A DNA stretch of 64,000 nucleotides from Phycisphaerae bacterium (GTDB lineage Bacteria; Planctomycetota; Phycisphaerae; UBA1845): assembly GCA_029260165.1 (NCBI GenBank), contig JAJDDT010000097.1, forward strand, positions 31,935 to 95,934, given 5' to 3'. How positions within the stretch are numbered: the first letter of the stretch is position 1; each line of letters begins with the position of its first letter. Both the position numbers and the translations under genes were made by a program. Positions 25,822 to 36,383 of this stretch are shown piece after piece. The notes beneath the pieces were generated by a model. It saw only the letters and a list, made by a program, of their open reading frames with translations, did not search any database and was not told the origin of the DNA.

Positions 25822-27588
25822 CTACGAAACCGTGGGCAGGAGGCAGACGTCCTGGACGGAATGTGTCGTCAGCCGCGCAATGGGAAGGACCGCGGACGGT
25901 GTGTCCGGGGTGGAGGTTTTCCAGACGAACAGGCGATCGCGTGCTTCGTTGGTAGCGACGATGAGATCGGCCGCGACTTCGACCCGGCGTAGCGTCTGCC
26001 CACCCGCTTCAAATCGACTGATGAACGAATCGTCAATGATGCGTGCAAAGACCGCCGACGACGTGTCGGTGTAAAACAACCGCTCGATACCATCAAAATC
26101 CACCATGAACACCGATTCGCACGAGCGTCGACGTCCCGTGTGGATCACCGTTGGATCGCCCGGGCGGTCGAGCGACCAGGCGACGACTTCCCCCTCCGCG
26201 TTCCCGGCGTAGACATTGCGATCCGTGACACAAACAGCCGTGATGATCGACCTTGATCCCACGAAAGGCTCCAGATTGGCGCCCTCATCACCGGCGAGCA
26301 TGCGATAGACGACGTGATCCGCTGAAAAGTAGACACCCGTCGGATGGAACCGGGCACACCGTACCGCCTTGGCAGGGTCTGTGACCTCCCGACAAAGACG
26401 CCTGGCTGGTTCGTCCGCACGACGGTCCCAAACCAGCAAACCAAGCTCCGAATGCGTCGCGTAGAGTTGGTCACCCGCAATGGCGACTGAATTCACACCG
26501 CCACGAACCTCGCCGACCTCATCCGCCCGATAGGATATCATCTCCCCGCCAAGGTCGGCCGCCAGCTCGTAAACCCCCACGGACGCACCGATGCACAGTC
26601 GTTGTGCACCGTTCGCATCGAGGTAGGTCTGCACGGATCGGATCGGACCTATGTCACCCGCCACAGTGATGCGATCTTTCGGCGTATCAGACGAACCGGG
26701 TTCAAACGAGAGAAGTTCATCGCCCGAACCGACGATGATGCGATCCGTGGCAAGTGCATTATCGCATGTTGCAAACAACGCTTCATACAGATGACATCGC
26801 TCGGTCTCATCAAACTGCTGAACGAGCGTCGCAAGCGAATCTGACGGCGAAGCCTCCGCCCGCTCGCGAAGCTGTTCCAACAGGGTCGCAACCCGTTCGG
26901 AATTGCTCCGTTCCGCCTGTGCACGCGCTTGTTCGACGCGATCCTTCGCTGAGATTTGTTCACGCCTGCGCTTCAATTCAGCACGAGTTCGCAACGACTG
27001 CCGATACATCGGCGCGTCGATCTGAATGTGAATCTGAGCGTCGATGTGAACCCCCGCACCAAACGCCGCGGGTTTGAGCGACTCAAACAGTTCCCCCCCA
27101 ATCGTCTCGGCATTTTCGGCGTCTATGAGAACACCCACACCCCTCCCGTCCGCCGCACCAGCCAACCCCAACGCGATCTGCGGACGAAAATAGTCCGCGA
27201 CCGTGGAATGATTGGCTGTGTTCGCACTTCCAATTACCCGGTTCCGAAATCCCACCAACTCCGCAGCCTCCGGAATCAGGTGCACGCGAAGCTCAACGTC
27301 AGCATGACACTGATAGTGATCTATCGAATGAACGGCGACGTTGGTGTATTTGAGCGAGAACGTTCCGGTTCGCACCCAGATGACCTCGGCCACCTCGTCC
27401 GACGTAAGGTCCGACCCTGCCGAGCACAAAACGCGATCACCGGTTTTTCGAATGACCACCGCGCATTGACCGACCGGCACACGATACGACCGATTCCAGA
27501 ACCCAAACAAATCCTCCGGATCGACCAGCGCTGCGAGGGCATCCTCGTTCGTGAAAAACGCTTTGACATCGAATGAATTCGTGGACAT
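25822..27588 (-). CDS. SPFH-like/beta-propeller fusion protein
   Basis: About 588 residues. I choose the ATG at 27588, 34 bases after the ATPase stop; a TTG at 27660 would overlap that gene. Residues 35-185 look like an SPFH/band-7 domain of the YdjI type: RVPVGQCAVVIRKTGDRV opens it and HIDAQIHIQIDAPMYRQ closes it. A charged coiled coil follows (RAELKRRREQISAKDRVEQ to about 240). The last 320 residues repeat strands of the WD40/PQQ kind (GQQLYATHS-like GDQLYATHSELGLLVWDRR, RNVYAGNAEGEVVAWSL, DLIVATNEARDRLFVWK). SPFH proteins of this type are known partners of PspA in Bacillus. No membrane helix is seen. Confidence 0.65.
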   Translation of the reverse strand: MSTNSFDVKAFFTNEDALAALVDPEDLFGFWNRSYRVPVGQCAVVIRKTGDRVLCSAGSDLTSDEVAEVIWVRTGTFSLKYTNVAVHSIDHYQCHADVELRVHLIPEAAELVGFRNRVIGSANTANHSTVADYFRPQIALGLAGAADGRGVGVLIDAENAETIGGELFESLKPAAFGAGVHIDAQIHIQIDAPMYRQSLRTRAELKRRREQISAKDRVEQARAQAERSNSERVATLLEQLRERAEASPSDSLATLVQQFDETERCHLYEALFATCDNALATDRIIVGSGDELLSFEPGSSDTPKDRITVAGDIGPIRSVQTYLDANGAQRLCIGASVGVYELAADLGGEMISYRADEVGEVRGGVNSVAIAGDQLYATHSELGLLVWDRRADEPARRLCREVTDPAKAVRCARFHPTGVYFSADHVVYRMLAGDEGANLEPFVGSRSIITAVCVTDRNVYAGNAEGEVVAWSLDRPGDPTVIHTGRRRSCESVFMVDFDGIERLFYTDTSSAVFARIIDDSFISRFEAGGQTLRRVEVAADLIVATNEARDRLFVWKTSTPDTPSAVLPIARLTTHSVQDVCLLPTVS

Positions 27589-27622
27589 CACAGGCTGCTC
27601 TTCGATCGGTATCCGGCCAATT

Positions 27623-28744
27623 TCATGATCCGTCCCCACCAAACGATTCGTATTTGACAAGCGAAGATTTCTCCACCGACGGCGGAATCACCGCGATCAC
27701 GCTTTCAAGGTCCTGCATGTTTATCGGACGTGGATCTCGACCGCCAATCGCGTCGGTAAACGGAATCGCCGCTGCACGCTGAATGATGTTTCGAATATCA
27801 GCACCACTGTAACCCTCTAATTTGTCGCACAACTCACCAAAATCGAGGTCCTCGTCTGCGGGCCTGTCACCAAAATGAATCTCCAACAATCGAAATCGAG
27901 CCGTCGCATCCGGCAGGCCAACGTACACCCTCGTATCCAAACGCCCCGGACGGAGCATGGCTTCGTCGAGCATCCACGGCTTGTTGGTGGCTCCGATAAA
28001 AAGCAACGCCCGATCCGAATCCCGATCAAACCCCTCCAACTCCTGCAAAATCTGAGGCACCACGCGTTGCATGACCGTCGACGACCCACTGCGGCGCTTC
28101 GGCACCAGCGCTTCGCACTCGTCGATGAAAATCACCGACATCGGTTCCTGCCTTGCCGCGTCGAAGAGCTTGCGAATGTTCTGCTCCGCCTCGCCGACCC
28201 ACTTGCTCATGATTTGTGCGGGGCTGATGACGAAATAGGTCGCGTTCAGCTCGAACGCGATCGCCCTGGCCATCATCGTTTTGCCCGTTCCCGGTGGACC
28301 ATACAGCAGCACACCGCCCCCGAGACCGATCCCGTATCGTTTCGCCAATTCCGGGTGCGACAATGGATAGATCATCTTGACGCGGATTTCGTGCTTCACG
28401 TCCTCAAGACCGGCGATGTCGTCGAAACCAATATTCGGTTTCTCGCGAACAATCCATTCGGACGCGTCGCTGCTGTTCTCATCTTCCCTTTCGGATTGAG
28501 CACGTCGTCCACCCGACCGTGGCGACACATGCAACCGCTCGCAATCTTTGGCCAACTCGATCAATTCCGCGGCCAATTCCTCGTGCTGCCGCCTCGCCTC
28601 GTCCGACTTCGTTTCTTCCGCCAGCGAAACCAAACACTCAGCCGCATCAATCAAGTACGCCTTCGCCGTCAGGTACTCGCCCTTCTGATAGGCAGCCACC
28701 CCCCTGGACTTGAGTCGGTCAAATGTGGAAAACGAAACTGACAT
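27623..28744 (-). CDS. Vps4/katanin-type AAA ATPase with N-terminal MIT-like domain
   Basis: 373 residues. Residues 1-72 form three helices resembling an MIT domain (AAYQKGEYLTAKAYLIDAAE), then a charged linker. The AAA core has Walker A GPPGTGKT (149-156), pore loop KWVGEAEQ (181-188), Walker B VIFIDE (204-209), sensor GATN and arginine fingers in RPGR (265-268). GYSGADIRNIIQRAA and the C-terminal helix IPPSVEKSSLVKYESF are the Vps4/katanin C-terminal signature. In eukaryotes and archaea such enzymes pull apart ESCRT-III filaments. Three ESCRT-III-like genes lie just upstream, which fits. RPGR in place of the Vps4 RRRF is more Cdc48-like. The fold is sure; the ESCRT role is inference. Confidence 0.85.
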   Translation of the reverse strand: MSVSFSTFDRLKSRGVAAYQKGEYLTAKAYLIDAAECLVSLAEETKSDEARRQHEELAAELIELAKDCERLHVSPRSGGRRAQSEREDENSSDASEWIVREKPNIGFDDIAGLEDVKHEIRVKMIYPLSHPELAKRYGIGLGGGVLLYGPPGTGKTMMARAIAFELNATYFVISPAQIMSKWVGEAEQNIRKLFDAARQEPMSVIFIDECEALVPKRRSGSSTVMQRVVPQILQELEGFDRDSDRALLFIGATNKPWMLDEAMLRPGRLDTRVYVGLPDATARFRLLEIHFGDRPADEDLDFGELCDKLEGYSGADIRNIIQRAAAIPFTDAIGGRDPRPINMQDLESVIAVIPPSVEKSSLVKYESFGGDGS

Positions 28745-28827
28745 CAGAACTATGGGGACAATCCCTATTAATATGCTAAATCAACAGCAACGCAAAATAG
28801 TGCTTTGCTACTCGTCATTCGATGATT

Positions 28828-28909
28828 GGGTGGCCCATGGCTTCAGCCGTGGGGGAGTCGAATTCGGAATTTCCTTCGAGTCCCCCACCTCTAAAGAGGT
28901 GGGCCACCC
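28828..28909 (-). repeat. 82-bp two-hairpin palindromic element, family A
   Basis: The inverse complement of the element at 18479, differing mainly in the central spacer (aattcggaatttcctt) and a few stem bases. It sits in the 256-base gap between the third ESCRT-III-like gene and the Vps4-like gene, the only large gap in that gene row, and may act there as an RNA hairpin that alters downstream expression. Nothing else is visible in the gap. Confidence 0.8.
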
Positions 28910-29000
28910 ATATGCCATCGATGCATCAAACCATCTTCCATGACACACTGGAACGACGCCCCAAAAGGACAACCAAATCGATCCTACGGGTGGTCAATCA

Positions 29001-29609
29001 CTACTTCTGCTTCTCGCCTTCTTTCTTCAACGCGCTCAACTCCGCACGCAAACCTGCCAGCTTGTCCATTTCCTTTTGATGCTCAGCCTCTGCTTCCGCG
29101 TCGATCAAACGATCGATTTCGTCGTCACTCACGACACTATCAGCATCGCTGACCTCGATATTGTCCGACGCGATCGACTCGACCGAATCGAGGAACATGT
29201 TCATCCGCTCCTCCATCGTCTCCGACTGCAACATCGCTTTTTCCCAGTCCGCCTGCGTCTTCATCAAATCCGTTTCACCGAACAATCGACCAATTTCGCT
29301 GGCCATCAAGCCCATGCTCTTGGAAAAATCCGCCGACGCCTCCGCCTGCCGCTTGATCAACAACGCGTTCTTGACCGTTAGCAACTGCCGTTCCAACATC
29401 TTCTTAACGGTGGCGGTCTTCTTCAGCGAATTGCGAATGAAGTTGTATTGCTGCGTATCGCCGATACGCTTGGCCTGCTGTGCGTTCCTGACAAAATCGT
29501 CCGTAAACTTATTCTGCTCGCGAATGGACTTCTCGATCCGCCGAATCCCCTGGCGAATTTTCATATCCCGCTCGATGCGACGCTCGTCAGCCGACTTGAA
29601 CAAACCCAT
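29001..29609 (-). CDS. ESCRT-III/Snf7-like protein with C-terminal MIM1-like motif
   Basis: 202 residues, all helix. The start MGLFKSADERR (ATG 29609, GAGG seven bases before) resembles CHMP/Snf7 N-termini. Residues 1-92 are basic and form a long helical hairpin (KIRQGIRRIEKSIREQNKF, then NSLKKTATVKKMLERQLL). From 100 the chain turns acidic, with DSVESIASDNIEVSDADS and DDEIDRLIDAEAEAE. It ends DKLAGLRAELSALKK, whose LxxELxxLK spacing matches the MIM1 motif that MIT domains grip. This basic-hairpin, acidic-tail and MIM layout is that of ESCRT-III. A PspA relative is the alternative within the same superfamily. The Vps4-like gene is next downstream. Confidence 0.7.
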   Translation of the reverse strand: MGLFKSADERRIERDMKIRQGIRRIEKSIREQNKFTDDFVRNAQQAKRIGDTQQYNFIRNSLKKTATVKKMLERQLLTVKNALLIKRQAEASADFSKSMGLMASEIGRLFGETDLMKTQADWEKAMLQSETMEERMNMFLDSVESIASDNIEVSDADSVVSDDEIDRLIDAEAEAEHQKEMDKLAGLRAELSALKKEGEKQK

Positions 29610-29633
29610 GAAAAAACCTCGCTGCAACGGCGA

Positions 29634-29828
29634 CTAATAATATTCGCGTTCCGGAATCACCATCCACAAAACGATATAGACCAATACACCCGAAAATGCC
29701 GTGAGTATTGACAACAACACATAGCCGACGCGAACAGCCGTCGGATCAATATCCAGATACTCCGCCAAACCACCACACACCCCGCCGATTTGCCGGTCCA
29801 TTTGAGATCGCCGTAGCGTTTTCGACAT
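29634..29828 (-). CDS. pspC: PspC-domain membrane protein
   Basis: 64 residues. QIGGVCGGLAEYLDIDPTAVR followed by a hydrophobic helix (VGYVLLSILTAFSGVLVYIVLWMVIP) is a complete PspC domain. In enteric bacteria PspC is an inner-membrane anchor and sensor that works with PspA, a member of the same superfamily as ESCRT-III. Here it lies 6 bases from one ESCRT-III-like gene and 13 from another, a strong link by context. GAGGG lies nine bases before the ATG. Confidence 0.93.
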   Translation of the reverse strand: MSKTLRRSQMDRQIGGVCGGLAEYLDIDPTAVRVGYVLLSILTAFSGVLVYIVLWMVIPEREYY

Positions 29829-29841
29829 GATTCAATTCCCT

Positions 29842-30453
29842 CTATTCATCGGTGGCTGCCTGCTGTTGATCGCGAACGCGACGATCCGCCTCATCAAACG
29901 CCTCGGACGTATCCGCAATGGCACCGTTGTCCATCCGCTCCCAAATACCCATCACCTCCGAGCCTGACTCGGACAATCCGCTCGAACCCTCGTCCACCTC
30001 CGCCCCAAGCCTCAACACCTCGTCAAGCCGCTCCTGATACACCTCAGCCCGAATCGAGTCCTTTTCAATCAGCTTCCCGAGCTTGAGCATGTCCCGTTCG
30101 CTCACCAAACCGAGCTTGCCGCCAATTTTGGCAGACCGATCGTGCGACTCCCGCAACATCCGCAACCGCGACACGGTGAGCAATTCCTTCGACCGCAGAT
30201 TCAACTGCCGCGCGACCATCAACTGCTCGGTCGTCTTCATCTCAAACTCTTGGGCGAGCGCCCTGCGAACCTCCGGCGTTCGCTCCGTGGCACCTGTCTC
30301 GAAAACTTTTCGCTTCTCATCCGCCAATTTCCTGATCCGCGACATCATGCGCGAGCGATCCTTCTCGATCAGCAACTCCTGCCGGCGAAGCTCCGTTCGC
30401 GACAGGTCCGCCAACCCCTTCTTCCGATTCGTCAACCAATCCAGCAAACTCAT
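29842..30453 (-). CDS. ESCRT-III/Snf7-like helical protein
   Basis: 203 residues, mostly helical. Residues 10-110 are strongly basic and read as a long hairpin (TELRRQELLIEKDRSRMMSR, then EVRRALAQEFEMKTTEQLMV, ARQLNLRSKELLTVSRLRML). Residues 118-150 give another helix, and the rest is acidic and loosely structured (EVDEGSSGLSESGSEVMGIW, AFDEADRRVRDQ). This follows ESCRT-III architecture, though the sequence match is weaker than for its two neighbours and no MIM motif is clear. It is 21 bases after the winged-helix/ESCRT-III gene and 13 before pspC, so one transcript is likely. Confidence 0.6.
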   Translation of the reverse strand: MSLLDWLTNRKKGLADLSRTELRRQELLIEKDRSRMMSRIRKLADEKRKVFETGATERTPEVRRALAQEFEMKTTEQLMVARQLNLRSKELLTVSRLRMLRESHDRSAKIGGKLGLVSERDMLKLGKLIEKDSIRAEVYQERLDEVLRLGAEVDEGSSGLSESGSEVMGIWERMDNGAIADTSEAFDEADRRVRDQQQAATDE

Positions 30454-30474
30454 TCGCCCAACACGCCTCTCATC

Positions 30475-31899
30475 TTATGACGCTTCCGGGTCCGCCCTTT
30501 TGGACGGTTGCTCTGTATCAGCCACATCCGCATCAGACGATTTCCTTTTTGCGACCGATTCCGATTTGCGAACCGGTGTCGACTCCGCAGGCTCGTCAAC
30601 CGTCTCAAATTCCTTCAGAATCGCCATCTCCTCATCACTCGTGCCGATGTCCGCCAACCCGGTCTCCAAGCTCGCCACCATGGCTGCGTCGGCGTTGAGT
30701 GTCTCAAGCATCTCTTCTGCTTTCACTGCATTTTCGGTCAGCTCCTCCGTATCGGGAAGCTGTGCCACATTGCCCTGCATGATCAACGTCAGATTGTGAA
30801 TGTCCGTCGAAATAATGTTGATCTGCTGATTCAACATGCCAGCCGTCGTGTTCTGACGGGCCACATCCTTGCGAACCTGCGCAAGCTGGGCAGCCACTCG
30901 CCGCCTGACCACGCTCGACGACGCCTCCTTTCCCTGCTTCAACAGGTCAGCCTCCCGTGTCTCCATCCTTCCAATATCTTCGTACAACCGATCACGGCGA
31001 CTCGAAAGCTGCGCCCGACGCTCAGCCAACACATTGATTTTCTCACCCTCGTCGCCCTCTTTGGCGAAGAGCTGGCGAATGCGATCCACAACGCTCATCG
31101 ATGTTTTCTCCGGTTTGGCAGCCACACCCCGATAGAGTAGCACGTCTCCGTCCTTCTGTGTCATGTAAAGTTCGGGATCTTCAGCCGCCATCTGCGCGAT
31201 GGCAGCCGACACCTCTTTTTGGGGAACATTCAATTTCGCCGACATCGTTTCCGCGGAAATTCCACCGGTCAGCAGATCGGCACTATGCGACTGGATTCGC
31301 TCCCTGACACGATCAATTTTCTGATCCGCCACCTCGGGATCAAATATTTCGAGAACATGCGCGGGCAACGACTCGTCCGGCGTGGATATCCGCCATCCCC
31401 CCTCTTTCTGCGGTTCCACAAGAACAAGCGAAACATTCGGCAGATCGATCTTGCAGCGGCGCGCATCCTCCGTGAAACCGCTCGGCGCGCAAATACCGAT
31501 GATGTGCGGCGTCGCGTCATCACCCACGATACGACGGACATGCTCGATCAGCTCGGTCAGATCGATGGGTGGCGGCGTCTGCTCCGGGCTGCCAACGATA
31601 CTGTCGAGCGGGTTCAACACCGATGCGATGGCGACACCCGTTGGATTTTTGCGAAACCACCAGTTCCGCTCAAAACCGTGAATCGCGATCCTGCGGTTGT
31701 GCGGCAATTCGCCGACCTTCCTGCGATCGTAAACGCGATGATTGGCCATGATCGCCCGCAAGCGGTCACTGTCGTCATGCCTGCTGGTCTTCCAGATGGA
31801 CCCGTGAAGCTGTTTGCCCCTGGCGGACTCCAGCCGCGACTCGACAATGGCGAGATAAGCGTACTCAGCTTTGAGCATTTCGCGTGCGTGATCTTTCAT
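30475..31899 (-). CDS. winged-helix/ESCRT-III-like fusion protein
   Basis: 474 residues. The start is the ATG at 31899, which overlaps the stop of the zinc-ribbon gene by four bases. Residues 1-200 are an unrecognised mixed alpha/beta region (IAIHGFERNWW, PHIIGICAPSGFTEDAR, VSLVLVEPQKEGGWRIS). Residues 213-258 look like a winged helix (GGISAETMSAKLNVPQKEV, ELYMTQKDGDVLLYRG). From 268 (MSVVDRIRQLFAKEG) an ESCRT-III-like core follows: a basic hairpin (RRRVAAQLAQVRKDVARQN), QQINIISTDIHNLTLIMQG, then acidic helices (AVKAEEMLETLNADAAMVAS, SDEEMAILKEFE) and a charged tail. Winged helix plus ESCRT-III recalls eukaryotic CHMP7. Function inferred. Confidence 0.65.
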   Translation of the reverse strand: MKDHAREMLKAEYAYLAIVESRLESARGKQLHGSIWKTSRHDDSDRLRAIMANHRVYDRRKVGELPHNRRIAIHGFERNWWFRKNPTGVAIASVLNPLDSIVGSPEQTPPPIDLTELIEHVRRIVGDDATPHIIGICAPSGFTEDARRCKIDLPNVSLVLVEPQKEGGWRISTPDESLPAHVLEIFDPEVADQKIDRVRERIQSHSADLLTGGISAETMSAKLNVPQKEVSAAIAQMAAEDPELYMTQKDGDVLLYRGVAAKPEKTSMSVVDRIRQLFAKEGDEGEKINVLAERRAQLSSRRDRLYEDIGRMETREADLLKQGKEASSSVVRRRVAAQLAQVRKDVARQNTTAGMLNQQINIISTDIHNLTLIMQGNVAQLPDTEELTENAVKAEEMLETLNADAAMVASLETGLADIGTSDEEMAILKEFETVDEPAESTPVRKSESVAKRKSSDADVADTEQPSKRADPEAS

Positions 31900-32114
31900 G
31901 TCAGTCGTTGCCCACAACGCGCACAATACCGTGCCCGTCGCTCATTGGTCGCACCGCACCGCGGGCGAGTGCATAGTCTTGAACTAACGTGCGGTTGTCG
32001 ATGGCGTTCCTTTTCAATCGCATGCGACCCCCAAAAGACCGACCGAATCAATTTGAAAAACACAAACGCGACCGCCAGGAACAGAGAACCGACAAACAGG
32101 ACAAACACCAGCAT
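31896..32114 (-). CDS. one-TM zinc-ribbon protein
   Basis: About 72 residues from the ATG at 32114; a TTG at 32132 would add six. One long hydrophobic helix (MLVFVLFVGSLFLAVAFVFF) is followed by a basic stretch and a zinc ribbon, CTRPRCGATNERRARYCARC. It lies 42 bases after the kinase gene and its stop overlaps the next start, so it is translated in step with the winged-helix/ESCRT-III protein. It may anchor that protein or the kinase, whose C-terminus has two similar ribbons, at the membrane. Confidence 0.65.
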   Translation of the reverse strand: MLVFVLFVGSLFLAVAFVFFKLIRSVFWGSHAIEKERHRQPHVSSRLCTRPRCGATNERRARYCARCGQRLT

Positions 32115-32156
32115 CGCACCAAAAGCCGCCAACGCAGTGTCACCAACCCTTTCGCA

Positions 32157-33188
32157 TCACGACGATCTTACCCGCAAGTCGTTCCCGCAAAAAATACAAA
32201 ACCGATCGGACGCCCCGACAAAACCATCGCACCGCTGACACCGCGGAACGTGCTCGACCACCTGAACCCCGCAATGAGTGCAATACTGATCGTCCGCCTT
32301 GACGCGTTCGTTGCACGCGGGACATTTTCCCGCACGGCGCGACGATGGTGGAATCGGCGGCGGTGTGGCTGCCGCAGCCCCAGCGATCGCCTGCTGCATG
32401 TTACGCGCGTTCGTGAATCGCCGATCGAGCCGAACGTAGCAACGTCTGAACACATCATCCAACCAGCCCGGGACATCAGGGCGAAGATCGCTCGGCATCT
32501 CCGCACCATGAGGCCTGGACCCCGTCAACATCTCAAACAACACAATACCGCACGAGTACAAATCCGCCCGACCGTCAACGTCGCGTCCTTCCTTGTGCTC
32601 CGGAGCCATGTACGCCAACGTCCCGCCGATACCCGTCTCGCCGTCCTCGCCCACGCTCCCCGACTGCATGATCGACTGAGCTGTCACCCCACCGGCCCGA
32701 CCAAGCCCGAAATCCGTGACCTTCACGCACTGCTCGGTAATCAGGTCCAATTCATCCAAACCACGCGTCAGCAGGATATTCGCCGGCTTGACGTCCCGAT
32801 GGATCACGCCCGCCTCATGCGCAACAGCCAGCGCATTTAACACCCCACGCATGATCGCCACCGCCGCGTGGATCGGCAGCCCGTTCGGATGCGCGTCGAG
32901 CGTTTCCCGCACCGACGCACCCTCCACCAGTTCCATCACCAGGTAAGGCGGATCGCCATACGGATCGAGGTCGATCGCCCGCACAATGTTCGGATGACGC
33001 AACCCGTGAATCGTCACACCTTCACGCCGCAGATTCTGCACGAAATCCGCGTTGGTCGGGATTTTGATCGCGACCATCTCATCGAAGACGTGGTGCTTCG
33101 CACGCCACACCTGCCCGAAGCTTCCCGATCCAATCGGTGCTTCAAGCAGATAGTTGCTTATCCGATCACCTTTTTGCGACAACGTCAT
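32157..33188 (-). CDS. Hanks-type Ser/Thr kinase with C-terminal double zinc ribbon
   Basis: 343 residues. The kinase domain has the glycine loop GSGSFG (20-25), the ATP lysine in VAIKIP (42), HRDVKPAN (130-137), DFGLGRA (159-165) and APE (195-197), so it should be active. A short proline-rich linker leads to two zinc ribbons, CPACNERVKADDQYCTHC and CQRCDGFVGASDRFCIFC. No transmembrane helix is present. I use the ATG at 33188 and not the TTG at 33200. It stands close to the head of the ESCRT-like gene row, with 33 bases from the membrane-protein gene upstream and 24 to the coding part ahead, and could control it by phosphorylation; the targets are unknown. Confidence 0.9.
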   Translation of the reverse strand: MTLSQKGDRISNYLLEAPIGSGSFGQVWRAKHHVFDEMVAIKIPTNADFVQNLRREGVTIHGLRHPNIVRAIDLDPYGDPPYLVMELVEGASVRETLDAHPNGLPIHAAVAIMRGVLNALAVAHEAGVIHRDVKPANILLTRGLDELDLITEQCVKVTDFGLGRAGGVTAQSIMQSGSVGEDGETGIGGTLAYMAPEHKEGRDVDGRADLYSCGIVLFEMLTGSRPHGAEMPSDLRPDVPGWLDDVFRRCYVRLDRRFTNARNMQQAIAGAAAATPPPIPPSSRRAGKCPACNERVKADDQYCTHCGVQVVEHVPRCQRCDGFVGASDRFCIFCGNDLRVRSS

Positions 33189-33221
33189 TTCCGTCCACAA
33201 GACAAAATAGAAAAACCCTCC

Positions 33222-33629
33222 TCACGCGGCGTCATCAATCCTCTCAGCCACGAAATCGCACACCAGGAAATTATAAACACCCGCCGCAAGGAAACCAACG
33301 ATGAGCACGACCCACCCGATCGCGTTCGGAACACTCCATCCGCAAAGCCACAACGCCACAACCACATCGACCACCATCAACACGACGAGCAATACTGCAC
33401 TCGCCGCGTTCGAATCCGCCTTCACAACCCTGGCCGTCAGAAAAAACATCCCCCAGGGCAACGCTGTCGCGAATCCAATCCAGAGAATCGCCCCTTTCAC
33501 CGCCGCCCACAACGCCTTCGCATCGTCCGGGTGATTCCAGAACCAGATCAAGGACGCCCCAACGCCAACGACCAGAATCGCGCTAAGCACCTTGCCACCA
33601 ACATATTTCGACGCCGTCGCCCACATCAT
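33222..33629 (-). CDS. small polytopic membrane protein
   Basis: About 135 residues with four hydrophobic segments (VLSAILVVGVGASLIWFW, GAILWIGFATALPWGMFFL, AVLLVVLMVVDVVVALWLC, NAIGWVVLIVGFLAAGVYN) and a short acidic C-terminus (AERIDDAA). I take the ATG at 33629; a TTG at 33647 is also in frame. Not recognised. It lies 33 bases ahead of the kinase gene on the same strand and may be the first gene of that transcript. The 171 bases upstream, to the GGDEF gene, should hold the promoter, but I find no convincing hexamers. Confidence 0.55.
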   Translation of the reverse strand: MMWATASKYVGGKVLSAILVVGVGASLIWFWNHPDDAKALWAAVKGAILWIGFATALPWGMFFLTARVVKADSNAASAVLLVVLMVVDVVVALWLCGWSVPNAIGWVVLIVGFLAAGVYNFLVCDFVAERIDDAA

Positions 33630-33800
33630 CTCAAACCCACACTCCAAATCCTGTCACGAGAACAACCCACCACCTGTATCCTACCACGCCCGCACGAACG
33701 CGGCGATTACAAAGAACACGCCAACCTGGAATGGGCAAAACGCGCACACACCGTGCGCCGATCGCGACCCATCCCCCTATTCGTAATTCCACGGCGATTA

Positions 33801-35165
33801 TTACAAGGCCAGATCAGCCGATACCACACGATTCTTACCCAGACCCTTGGCGTTGTACAACGCTTCGTCAGCCGCCTGAATCAACGCGTTCGCCGACGGT
33901 ATCGCAAGGCGCGACAGACATGAAATTCCCACACTGAGCGTGACCGCAGGCCCCTCAAAATCCGTCGCCTGGTCATGCTCAAATCGATCAATAATGCGCG
34001 CAGCCAACACATGCGCATCGGCGCAACCCGCGCCCGGCATCAGCACGACGAACTCGTCCCCACCGAATCGCGCTGCAACGTCCGTCGCGCGAAGAGCCGT
34101 CAAAATGCTCCGAGCCGTAGCGCCAAGAACCTTGTCACCATACGGATGCCCCAGCGTGTCGTTAACATTCTTGAAATCATCAACGTCGAGCATCAACAAC
34201 GTAACGTCACTACCAAACCGGTCCGCCTCAGCCAATCGACGCACCAACTCCTCGTTGAAGTGACGCCTGTTATACAATCCTGTCAACGGATCCCGGGCAG
34301 CCAACTCGCGCAGCTGAGCAGTACGCTCTTTCACACGCCGCTCCAGTTGAGAATTGAGCGACGCAATTTCCTCCTGCTTGCGCTGCACACGGTCCGCCAT
34401 CTCATTGAACCGACCCGCCAACAGGCCTATCTCATCCCGGCTTTGAATATCAACACGCGCGTGAAGATCACCCCCGGAAAATCGCTCCGCGGCGGATGCC
34501 ATCACACGCAGAGGCTGCGAGACACGACGCACCCCGAGAAACGCCAACGGTATCACCAACAGCAAAATCGCGATGGCAGACCCCACCATCAGATCAGCCG
34601 TCGCATCAAACTCCTGAATTGTCGCACGTCGATCAACCCCGACCCGCAAGTAACCCGCCACCGGAGTATCAACGCCATCTCCCGCATGCCACGGCGCGAC
34701 GGGAAATGTGACCGATACAAACCTGCTCCCCTTGTCCCGGGAGGACCACTCCACGGGCGCTCCGATCAATCCATCCGCCCCATCCCGCAGAGACCCCGAC
34801 GATGGTCCGACCACCTCCCCGGCGTGCGCGATCACGTTCCCCTGAAAATCCGAAACCGTCAGAAAGGCAAACGGACCACCCTCGATCAACCCATCGAGCG
34901 TCGCCTGAATCGATCCACGACCGCCCTCCCCAACCGGTTTCGCAAGGGTGCCAGCCAGAAGACGACCACCAGTCATCACCTCGTCACGGTCCAGCCGACC
35001 CGCCATTCGCCATGCCATACGCGTGGACAAACCACAAAGAAGCGTCGTCACCACGAAAATCAGCGCAACGACCAGAACCGTCGCCCGAAACTGCAATCCC
35101 AGCAATGTGGATCGCAGGCGATCGTGCCACGCTTCCGTCCCTGATTGAGTTGAAATCACCGTCAC
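33801..35165 (-). CDS. membrane-bound diguanylate cyclase (HAMP-GGDEF)
   Basis: 454 residues. One membrane helix (VLVVALIFVVTTLLCGL) and a second at 193-213 enclose a periplasmic sensor region of about 140 residues. HAMP follows (QPLRVMASAAERFSGGDLHA), then a coiled coil (QRKQEEIASLNSQLERRVKE) and a GGDEF domain. The active site FGGDEF (367-372) is intact, and an I-site RATD lies five residues before it, so the enzyme should make cyclic-di-GMP with product inhibition. The start is GTG at 35163-35165. The ligand of the sensor region is unknown. It is the same strand as the ESCRT-like row but separated by 171 bases. Confidence 0.92.
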   Translation of the reverse strand: MTVISTQSGTEAWHDRLRSTLLGLQFRATVLVVALIFVVTTLLCGLSTRMAWRMAGRLDRDEVMTGGRLLAGTLAKPVGEGGRGSIQATLDGLIEGGPFAFLTVSDFQGNVIAHAGEVVGPSSGSLRDGADGLIGAPVEWSSRDKGSRFVSVTFPVAPWHAGDGVDTPVAGYLRVGVDRRATIQEFDATADLMVGSAIAILLLVIPLAFLGVRRVSQPLRVMASAAERFSGGDLHARVDIQSRDEIGLLAGRFNEMADRVQRKQEEIASLNSQLERRVKERTAQLRELAARDPLTGLYNRRHFNEELVRRLAEADRFGSDVTLLMLDVDDFKNVNDTLGHPYGDKVLGATARSILTALRATDVAARFGGDEFVVLMPGAGCADAHVLAARIIDRFEHDQATDFEGPAVTLSVGISCLSRLAIPSANALIQAADEALYNAKGLGKNRVVSADLAL

Positions 35166-35342: not shown

Positions 35343-36383
35343 TCAGGAATGGGTGTCGGCCGGGGCACCAGACTCCTGCGACTTGGCGGTTACCTGAACA
35401 TCCGACGGAATACCCGCGCGCGTCCGCAGAGCACTCATGTGCTCCTCGACCTCCCTGGACATGCGCGAGTTCGGAAACTCCTCAATAATCTGTAAACCAG
35501 CCACCAGCGCATCACGCCAACGACGTTCCTTGACGGCGAACTGAAACGTGATCCCCAGTTGCGTGAGTCGCTCCTTGAACAACTCCCGCGCCGTCTCCTG
35601 CATCTCCTGCGCCTCGTCGCGCGCGATATACTGATCAAGCTCCTTCAGCGTCTCAATACCGGATTCGACGTTGCTGTCGCGAACAGCCTCATTCCACGTT
35701 TGCATCAACGCCTGCTTGCGCAGATCGCGCTTCTCCTCCATCACATGCCACAGATTCTTAACGCGGGACTCGTTTGGAATCAGACGATTCAACCGCTCAA
35801 TCTCATCACTCGCCCGGTCCCAGGACGCCTCGTCCATCAGCTTGTGTACATGCTCCAGAGCAACACGCAGCTTGCTACGCAATGCATCGGCACACATCGA
35901 CCGCGTCTCATCACGCATCTTCTCGGCTTCCTCGCGATAACCGAGGCGACCTTCCAGATCATCGATCAGGTGAAACGCCGCTTCAAAATCCTCGCGACGT
36001 ACCTCTTCATAAATAGCGCCCCGAAGAACCTCGCGCTCATGGCTTCGGTGCGCAACGGATTTCGCCGCATCAGAAATGGAGGTGTTTTCCGCAATCTTCC
36101 CAATGGCCGTTCCGGATCGCTGAACCTGCTCAAACAACTCGAAAACCTGGTTGTAAACACGAGACGTATTCGATTCAATTTTCAGTGCGAGCCGAACGAG
36201 GATCGCCGCAACGGTCACCAGAACTAAAAGCGATCCACCCGTCAGAATCAGCCAGACACCTTGCGGCGAATCCAGTTGGGTCACTCCGTACACCACCGCA
36301 GCCACACCAAGCAGCCCGCCCACTATGACTGCAACGGTCCCAAGGAATCGTACGCGGGAAAGACGGGTTGGAGAGTTCAGCAT
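35343..36383 (-). CDS. membrane protein with long helical-repeat domain
   Basis: 346 residues. Two hydrophobic helices at the N-terminus (FLGTVAVIVGGLLGVAAVVY and WLILTGGSLLVLVTVAAILV) are followed by about 270 residues of helix. Parts read as helix pairs of the TPR kind (REDFEAAFHLIDDLEGRLG, ASWDRASDEIERLNRLI, NVESGIETLKELDQYIA, RWRDALVAGLQIIEEFPNSR). The last 25 residues are disordered. It probably acts as a scaffold on the cytoplasmic face. Not recognised. It is on the same strand, 177 bases upstream of the GGDEF gene. Confidence 0.6.
   Translation of the reverse strand: MLNSPTRLSRVRFLGTVAVIVGGLLGVAAVVYGVTQLDSPQGVWLILTGGSLLVLVTVAAILVRLALKIESNTSRVYNQVFELFEQVQRSGTAIGKIAENTSISDAAKSVAHRSHEREVLRGAIYEEVRREDFEAAFHLIDDLEGRLGYREEAEKMRDETRSMCADALRSKLRVALEHVHKLMDEASWDRASDEIERLNRLIPNESRVKNLWHVMEEKRDLRKQALMQTWNEAVRDSNVESGIETLKELDQYIARDEAQEMQETARELFKERLTQLGITFQFAVKERRWRDALVAGLQIIEEFPNSRMSREVEEHMSALRTRAGIPSDVQVTAKSQESGAPADTHS

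Follow-up and report, generated by a model that had tools for sequence, protein, structure and literature searches.

In the passages of Makarova et al. 2024 (PMC10936438) that treat their distribution, homologues of the endosomal sorting complex required for transport (ESCRT) are placed in archaea and not in bacteria, and archaeal loci are described with a kinase, winged-helix proteins and, in one clade, SPFH proteins. Passages of Ravi et al. 2024 (PMC11237479) describe the transfer of Vps4-like ATPases into bacteria, where an unrelated TPR/6TM protein takes the place of Snf7. They also mention bacterial operons of another composition that pair a Snf7 homologue with an AAA partner, which occurs with transporter genes. 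We analyzed a 64,000-nucleotide stretch (the window) from Phycisphaerae bacterium of the phylum Planctomycetota (contig JAJDDT010000097.1, positions 31,935 to 95,934), which is contained in a 4.43 Mb assembly (GCA_029260165.1) rated 100% complete. Positions 25822..33647 of the window hold a minus-strand row of genes for a 141-amino-acid (aa) protein (TM141), a kinase, a zinc-ribbon protein, a 474-aa fusion protein, a helical protein (H203), PspC, a second helical protein (H195), an AAA ATPase and an SPFH-like protein. This locus is probably a bacterial version of the archaeal-type ESCRT (we put the probability at roughly 0.75), whose filaments would form at the cytoplasmic membrane, on its inner side, and would be remodelled by the AAA ATPase.

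Related loci of Planctomycetota were compared in two sets. Near loci are from the window's family or order (25 loci on 23 distinct contigs; L031/L102 and L032/L101 were taken as duplicates), and far loci are 22 loci from other classes, several of them on short contigs. A tblastn search of 72,556 plasmid records with one far H195 returned one record, Thermococcus peptonophilus NZ_CP014751, and the match was weak (E = 1). It fell exactly on a gene whose row also contains a kinase, a phosphatase and a Vps4-like ATPase. Eight planctomycete profiles were compared by hhalign with all 55 annotated proteins of this plasmid and with 110 decoys made by reversal or shuffling, and the top match of each profile lay above every decoy. 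For H195 the top match was the Thermococcus ESCRT-III gene (Prob 98.5 over 146 columns). The H203 profile (A7) placed a 198-aa gene first of the 55 (Prob 95.7, 180 columns); a profile from near sequences only matched the same protein with Prob 83.6. The winged-helix profile, from the N-terminal part of the fusion, placed a 607-aa gene first (Prob 96.3, 227 columns). Three ATPase profiles placed the Thermococcus Vps4 first with Prob 100, a ranking that is less telling because Vps4 is the only close AAA relative on the plasmid. We assign the Thermococcus locus to the Main clade of Makarova et al. 2024 as outlined in parts of PMC10936438, and from its place the 607-aa protein is probably the arCOG09748 mentioned there. 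Because the H203, winged-helix and ATPase profiles pick the same Thermococcus locus, the planctomycete locus appears to be a counterpart of the archaeal-type ESCRT set and not of the phage shock protein (Psp) system. The original prediction, made from the DNA letters and their translations, had judged the layout nearer to archaeal or eukaryotic ESCRT than to Psp, and this was borne out by the individual matches of several genes to the archaeal locus. Its core reading, ESCRT-III-type subunits with their own Vps4-like ATPase and a kinase, is also supported.

The features of the locus are as follows.

33222..33647, minus strand: TM141, a 141-aa hydrophobic protein, upstream and in the same place in many near loci
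32157..33188, minus strand: 343-aa Ser/Thr protein kinase (counted from ATG) with a double zinc ribbon at its C-terminus (Pkinase 5.6e-39, DZR 2.8e-06)
31896..32147, minus strand: small protein in whose translation a zinc ribbon and a single long hydrophobic stretch were read
30475..31899, minus strand: 474-aa fusion of an alpha/beta domain, a winged helix and an ESCRT-III-like hairpin (E3), from the AlphaFold model and profiles
30604..31098, minus strand: E3 domain within the fusion, from residue 268, by profile and model
29842..30453, minus strand: H203, a 203-aa helical protein, predicted second filament-type subunit, by profile against the archaeal locus
29634..29828, minus strand: PspC, 64 aa (TIGR02978 1.8e-14)
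29001..29609, minus strand: H195, ESCRT-III (Snf7-type) subunit, 202 aa, by profiles and fold
28745..29000, no strand: 256-base gap with a dispersed palindrome resembling repetitive extragenic palindromes (REP-like), one arm at 28828-28848
27623..28744, minus strand: AAA ATPase (AAA1) with an MIT-like N-terminus and a Vps4_C-type C-terminus, 373 aa (AAA 7.9e-40)
25822..27588, minus strand: protein with an SPFH-like N-domain (Band_7 weak) and a putative propeller-like C-half; start ATG at 27588 by reading

Every gene named in the original prediction was present on the minus strand at the position given there. The intergenic gaps, predicted to be 6-42 bases, came close to this range but measured 33, 9, -4, 21, 13, 24, 256 and 40 bases. 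The negative value is the 4-base overlap of the small zinc-ribbon gene, present in many near loci though not in all, with its downstream neighbor, and the last gap (ATPase to SPFH-like gene) is 34 bases if the ATG at 27588 is used and 40 otherwise. The single 256-base gap with a repeat was confirmed, and a dispersed palindromic element lies inside it. Its REP-like 21-mer has 62 copies in the same genome at ≤2 mismatches, against 0 for a reversed control; the tight spacing of the row is interrupted by this gap alone.

The gene set is conserved in relatives (neighbor counts are for the same strand within 8 kb). H203 was found in all 25 near loci, the kinase in 24, the full fusion in 24 (in the 25th the fusion protein is truncated by the contig end), AAA1 in 20, the SPFH-like protein in 19 and PspC in 17. 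The kinase, fusion, H203, H195, AAA1 and SPFH-like genes stood all together in 18 of the 25. The original prediction hinged on such recurrence, and in these 18 loci the set recurs whole. An ESCRT-III gene has a Vps4-like ATPase near it, as in archaeal ESCRT loci, in the 20 near loci with AAA1. A Ser/Thr kinase, as in many archaeal ESCRT loci, accompanies it in 24/25 near and 9/22 far loci. The far loci had H195 in 21 of 22 (the copy in L084 was missed by the far-locus scan and found by genome search), the winged-helix protein in 14, AAA1 in 13, a second ATPase (AAA2) in 13, H203 in 7, the SPFH-like protein in 7 and a separate E3 in 6; PspC was detected in none of the 22. At least one Vps4-like ATPase (AAA1 and/or AAA2) was present in 18 of the 21 far loci that bear H195.

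Of 40 genomes from the window's family and order, its own among them, 32 carried H195, with identity of 65-90%. Because of this and because the neighbors recur, a chance arrangement is excluded. In a survey of the phylum, 56 of 392 genomes carried H195 (own genome included), as did 15 of 217 genomes of high quality. The other 55 carriers were all from other classes, and none of the 20 same-class genomes among those listed in the survey had it. The distribution of H195 across the phylum is wide but patchy. The seven named relatives are metagenome-assembled genomes of Phycisphaerae or Planctomycetota. Archaeal contamination was ruled out by the presence of the locus in two carriers of the window's order that are each single-contig genomes (G030 and G034) and by its retention across families.

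H195 is an ESCRT-III homologue as judged from profiles and predicted fold. The Pfam model Snf7 (PF03357) passed its cut-off in 4 of 51 genomes, all of them other-class relatives, and always at the H195 gene; the H195 of L076 scored 27.3 bits, equal to the cut-off. At E ≤ 0.01, 24 of the 25 Snf7 matches in the 51 genomes lay at the H195 gene. A PDB search with the profile of the H195 family gave nine matches at E ≤ 10, eight of which were CHMP3, Snf7 or CHMP2A (best 5.8e-04), and for one distant H195, 69 of the 120 relatives listed carry a precomputed Snf7 domain. The H195 model (mean predicted local distance difference test score, pLDDT, 73.7) has helices at residues 7-49, 52-110, 114-128, 132-148 and 162-201. 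These form the long alpha1-alpha2/3 hairpin, shorter helices and C-terminal tail helix typical of ESCRT-III, so the hairpin on which the original prediction depended is present in the model. The top 8 of 324 Foldseek matches were ESCRT-III proteins, none at E ≤ 0.001. Net charge over the first 110 residues is +12 in H195 and +10 in H203, and the acidic tails carry -15 and -11, respectively. Among the sequences scored, 3491 homologues of H195 reached E ≤ 0.001. One H195 relative, P0147, is labelled 'phage shock protein A' by its source; in 30 genomes searched with the PspA model (PspA_IM30, PF04012), no match at E ≤ 1 lay at an H195 gene.

Three helical proteins with basic hairpins had been taken as ESCRT-III-type subunits. 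Only H195 is of the Snf7 type; H203 and the C-terminal domain of the fusion are of a second type. By profile comparison there are thus two types of subunit, the Snf7-like H195 and the mutually related H203 and E3, which are homologous with Prob 94.7. The putative ESCRT-III label of H203 and E3 comes from the archaeal locus and, for E3, also from modelled structural likeness to CdvB2 (third-ranked Foldseek match, prob 1.00, E 0.025). The largest helical protein does have the expected hairpin but proved to be a 474-aa fusion that also contains an alpha/beta domain and a winged helix (~191-257). Its AlphaFold model is weak (pLDDT 64, 8 sequences), with a winged-helix-like stretch at 191-257 and a hairpin at 284-374. 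E3 is a free-standing gene in L071, L073, L075 and L076.

In the window ATPase the Walker A and B motifs are intact, GATN is present, the pore loop reads SKWVGE, and the protein ends in PPSV...Y..F. It combines a single AAA domain with a Vps4-type C-terminal region, as does Vps4. All 13 near ATPases were matched by Vps4_C at E ≤ 1, with 3.2e-07 as the best value; the window protein scored 18.6 bits, below the cut-off of 21.3, and the ATPase copies in L069 and L075 exceeded the cut-off. The Vps4/katanin-type C-terminus of the original prediction is supported. For the MIT-like N-terminus predicted with it the signals are divided, with PDB and alignment likeness on one side and a Pfam preference for TPR on the other. 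The PDB profile of 22 ATPase N-termini had as its best match chitin synthase 1 2mpk (3.9e-05), which we take to be an MIT domain; VPS4B MIT chains followed at 0.07-3.4, and TPR and designed proteins were also matched. Pfam assigned MIT to 1 and TPR_2 to 7 of the 22 N-termini, and the alignment of the window ATPase to the Thermococcus Vps4 begins at residue 6. The best NCBIfam model of the window ATPase was CdvC (240.6 bits) versus CDC48 (227.1), both far below their cut-offs; one far AAA1 scored higher with CDC48 (249.1) than with CdvC (218.1).

An ATPase tree was built with Cdc48, FtsH, eukaryotic Vps4, three haloarchaeal ATPases and one Streptomyces ATPase. AAA1, AAA2, Vps4 and the haloarchaeal and Streptomyces ATPases were separated from Cdc48 at a starred node (97/94). 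AAA2 and the Thermococcus Vps4 came out as sisters at a starred node (100/99), and with eukaryotic Vps4 these formed a starred group (96/86). Forcing AAA1 and Vps4 into one clade was rejected (p-AU 0.0015), so the window ATPase is not a plain Vps4 orthologue. According to the tree it is a Vps4-like paralogue off the Vps4 branch, and the predicted Vps4-like ATPase stands insofar as it falls with Vps4 and not with Cdc48, but it lies outside the Vps4 branch itself. The depth of these splits is unsure because archaeal Vps4 is represented by a single sequence and the haloarchaeal branches are long. AAA2 lies upstream of H195 in L069, L070, L073, L075, L077, L080, L081, L083, L085 and L087, all from other classes; a source gives some AAA2 relatives the name katanin p60. 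A search with a profile that includes the Thermococcus Vps4 row (A9) found AAA2 in 0 of 10 genomes of the window's order (best 177-197 bits; positive controls G059 630 and G083 679). The simplest story would be that an older planctomycete locus had both ATPases and that the window's order kept AAA1 alone. On a Streptomyces anthocyanicus plasmid (L137), an AAA ATPase similar to the window's adjoins a TPR protein, a pair reminiscent of the bacterial Vps4 transfers reported in parts of Ravi et al. (PMC11237479).

Among the partner proteins, the kinase retains its catalytic motifs VAIK, HRDVKPAN and DFG. PspC scored 53.7 bits with TIGR02978 (cut-off 104). Band_7 (PF01145) matched 4 of 10 members of the SPFH-like family (best 8.9e-05); the match of the window protein (0.0097) is weak and below the cut-off. 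TM141, as an upstream syntenic gene, is possibly part of the operon. Further upstream lie a HAMP/GGDEF-like protein, named by reading (33801-35165), and a 346-aa membrane/helical protein (35343-36383); both positions are kept in many near loci, and the two proteins may belong to the same system.

Several results gave no support to an ESCRT-type assignment or weigh against it. The window's own H195 had no Pfam Snf7 match and is joined to matching relatives through an alignment (A5), and the PDB search with the near-only H195 profile gave no match. Below its cut-off, Snf7 also matched in 8 of 14 control genomes, and sub-cut-off Snf7 matches weigh less for that reason. The strict MIM1 motif, as defined in a passage of PMC5141497, was present in none of 25 H195 tails. 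A relaxed form was found in 18 of the 25, versus 10% of shuffles, and is absent from the window's own tail. No signal above shuffles was obtained for an amphipathic N-terminal helix. The H203 and E3 profiles showed no link to H195. E3 alone placed a 201-aa Thermococcus gene first, but only with Prob 35, and its PDB search gave 12 matches, with CdvB in second place (0.075) and a number of designed coiled coils. H203 had no ESCRT-III match in PDB, Pfam gave nothing relevant on the fusion or H203, and VIA matches of the fusion model were mixed with BAR and other helical proteins.

A quality-control or signalling complex, in which an ESCRT-derived scaffold serves kinase signalling or membrane-protein extraction without scission, would account for the kinase in 24 of 25 near loci, for the position of the near ATPase off the Vps4 branch and for the SPFH-like partner in 19 of 25. 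We consider it unlikely, however; the kinase is found in only 9 of 22 far loci, and the 65-90% identity of H195 across the order fits a filament subunit. Still less probable is a variant Psp envelope-stress operon with PspA-type helical proteins, a PspC that senses membrane stress and an ATPase as side player. PspC is indeed in the row and in 17 of 25 near loci, and PspA itself is placed in the ESCRT-III superfamily in the part of PMC8281802 that deals with it. However, PspC was not detected in any of the 22 far loci, and the window's own genome has no PspA_IM30 match at E ≤ 0.001 even though PspC is present. None of the PspA_IM30 matches in the 30 genomes was at an H195 gene, while 12 of these genomes have an over-cut-off PspA elsewhere, and the nine PDB profile matches were mostly eukaryotic ESCRT-III and included neither PspA nor Vipp1. 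The missing PspA_IM30 matches and the ESCRT-III matches in PDB ruled out the Psp operon as the principal interpretation. That the helical proteins are unrelated coiled coils sharing a hairpin shape, and the ATPase a generic Cdc48-like unfoldase, is most improbable: weak fold E-values, the helical background in VIA, the slight CdvC margin of the window ATPase (240.6 vs. 227.1) and the CDC48 preference of one distant AAA1 are outweighed by Snf7 matches over the cut-off in 4 of 51 genomes, the eight of nine PDB matches to ESCRT-III, the one-to-one hhalign match to the archaeal locus with decoys, and a Vps4-sister ATPase (AAA2) in the same loci.

If the locus is an archaeal-type ESCRT, the basic hairpins would bind the membrane and polymerize, and H203 and the E3 domain would either co-polymerize with H195 or cap it. 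As an adaptor, the winged-helix half might nucleate the filament or recruit it. The MIT-like domain of the ATPase would hold the acidic C-terminal tails, and subunits would be drawn out via the W-containing pore. The SPFH-like and PspC proteins could anchor the assembly to the membrane, and the kinase would turn it on or off. The predicted outcome is ATP-driven membrane bending, repair or scission. We infer filament growth, winged-helix recruitment, tail-gripping disassembly and kinase control by analogy with known ESCRT biology; polymerization, membrane activity and the cellular job of the set are likewise what we infer.

FtsZ had no match in the window's own genome and passed its cut-off in none of the 40 relatives or the 392 phylum genomes; weaker matches occurred in 2 and 10 of them, respectively, and G017 had a strong but partial sub-cut-off match (216.7 bits). 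An anticorrelation between FtsZ and H195 was uninformative: FtsZ passes the cut-off nowhere in the sample, with or without H195. Because most of the 392 genomes also lack H195, ESCRT is not a general substitute for FtsZ. In carriers, a role in division, internal membranes or membrane repair is possible. It is a doubtful proposition that the locus is a full ESCRT machine, of shared inheritance with the archaeal one, that serves as the membrane-scission engine of FtsZ-less planctomycetes in division or in pinching of internal membranes. If true, bacteria would share with archaea and eukaryotes the whole ATPase-driven system, beyond ESCRT-III-like proteins.

Planctomycetota are known for unusual membranes and division, and the locus is a candidate for membrane shaping or cutting in a phylum with FtsZ over cut-off in 0 of 392 genomes. 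An archaeal-type set in bacteria redraws where the ESCRT machine exists. The planctomycete set provides a new outgroup for the question whether ESCRT is ancient or was transferred, and it makes the use of ATP-driven ESCRT filaments by a bacterium directly testable. At title and abstract level, with preprints and most subscription papers outside coverage, no paper on an ESCRT-III and Vps4 system in Planctomycetota was found. An archaeal-type ESCRT set in a bacterial phylum is new to the extent that no description was found, which is not proof that it is unpublished.

The archaeal-type set is absent from the account of bacterial associations in section 18 of PMC11237479. With bacterial Psp, the locus shares the PspC gene and a superfamily kinship through ESCRT-III; it differs in a row without PspA and in having its own ATPase, winged-helix protein and kinase. 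By sequence, the H195 family matches eukaryotic CHMP3, Snf7 and CHMP2A best in the PDB, but H195 has low identity to eukaryotic ESCRT-III and lacks the strict MIM1 motif. Like CdvABC of Thermoproteota, the locus has an ATPase that scores best on the CdvC model (below cut-off) and an E3 that resembles CdvB2 and, weakly, CdvB (0.075); gene set and order are different. Compared with the Thermococcus locus of NZ_CP014751, the planctomycete loci have an extra SPFH-like protein and, near the window, also PspC and the one-transmembrane zinc-ribbon protein; they carry the winged-helix part in one protein with an ESCRT-III-like domain, and the window's order keeps AAA1, with AAA2 not found in 10 genomes. 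The two have in common an ESCRT-III protein, a second protein of ~200 aa, a large protein whose C-terminal part is homologous and a Vps4, all profile-matched, as well as a Ser/Thr kinase (by annotation in Thermococcus).

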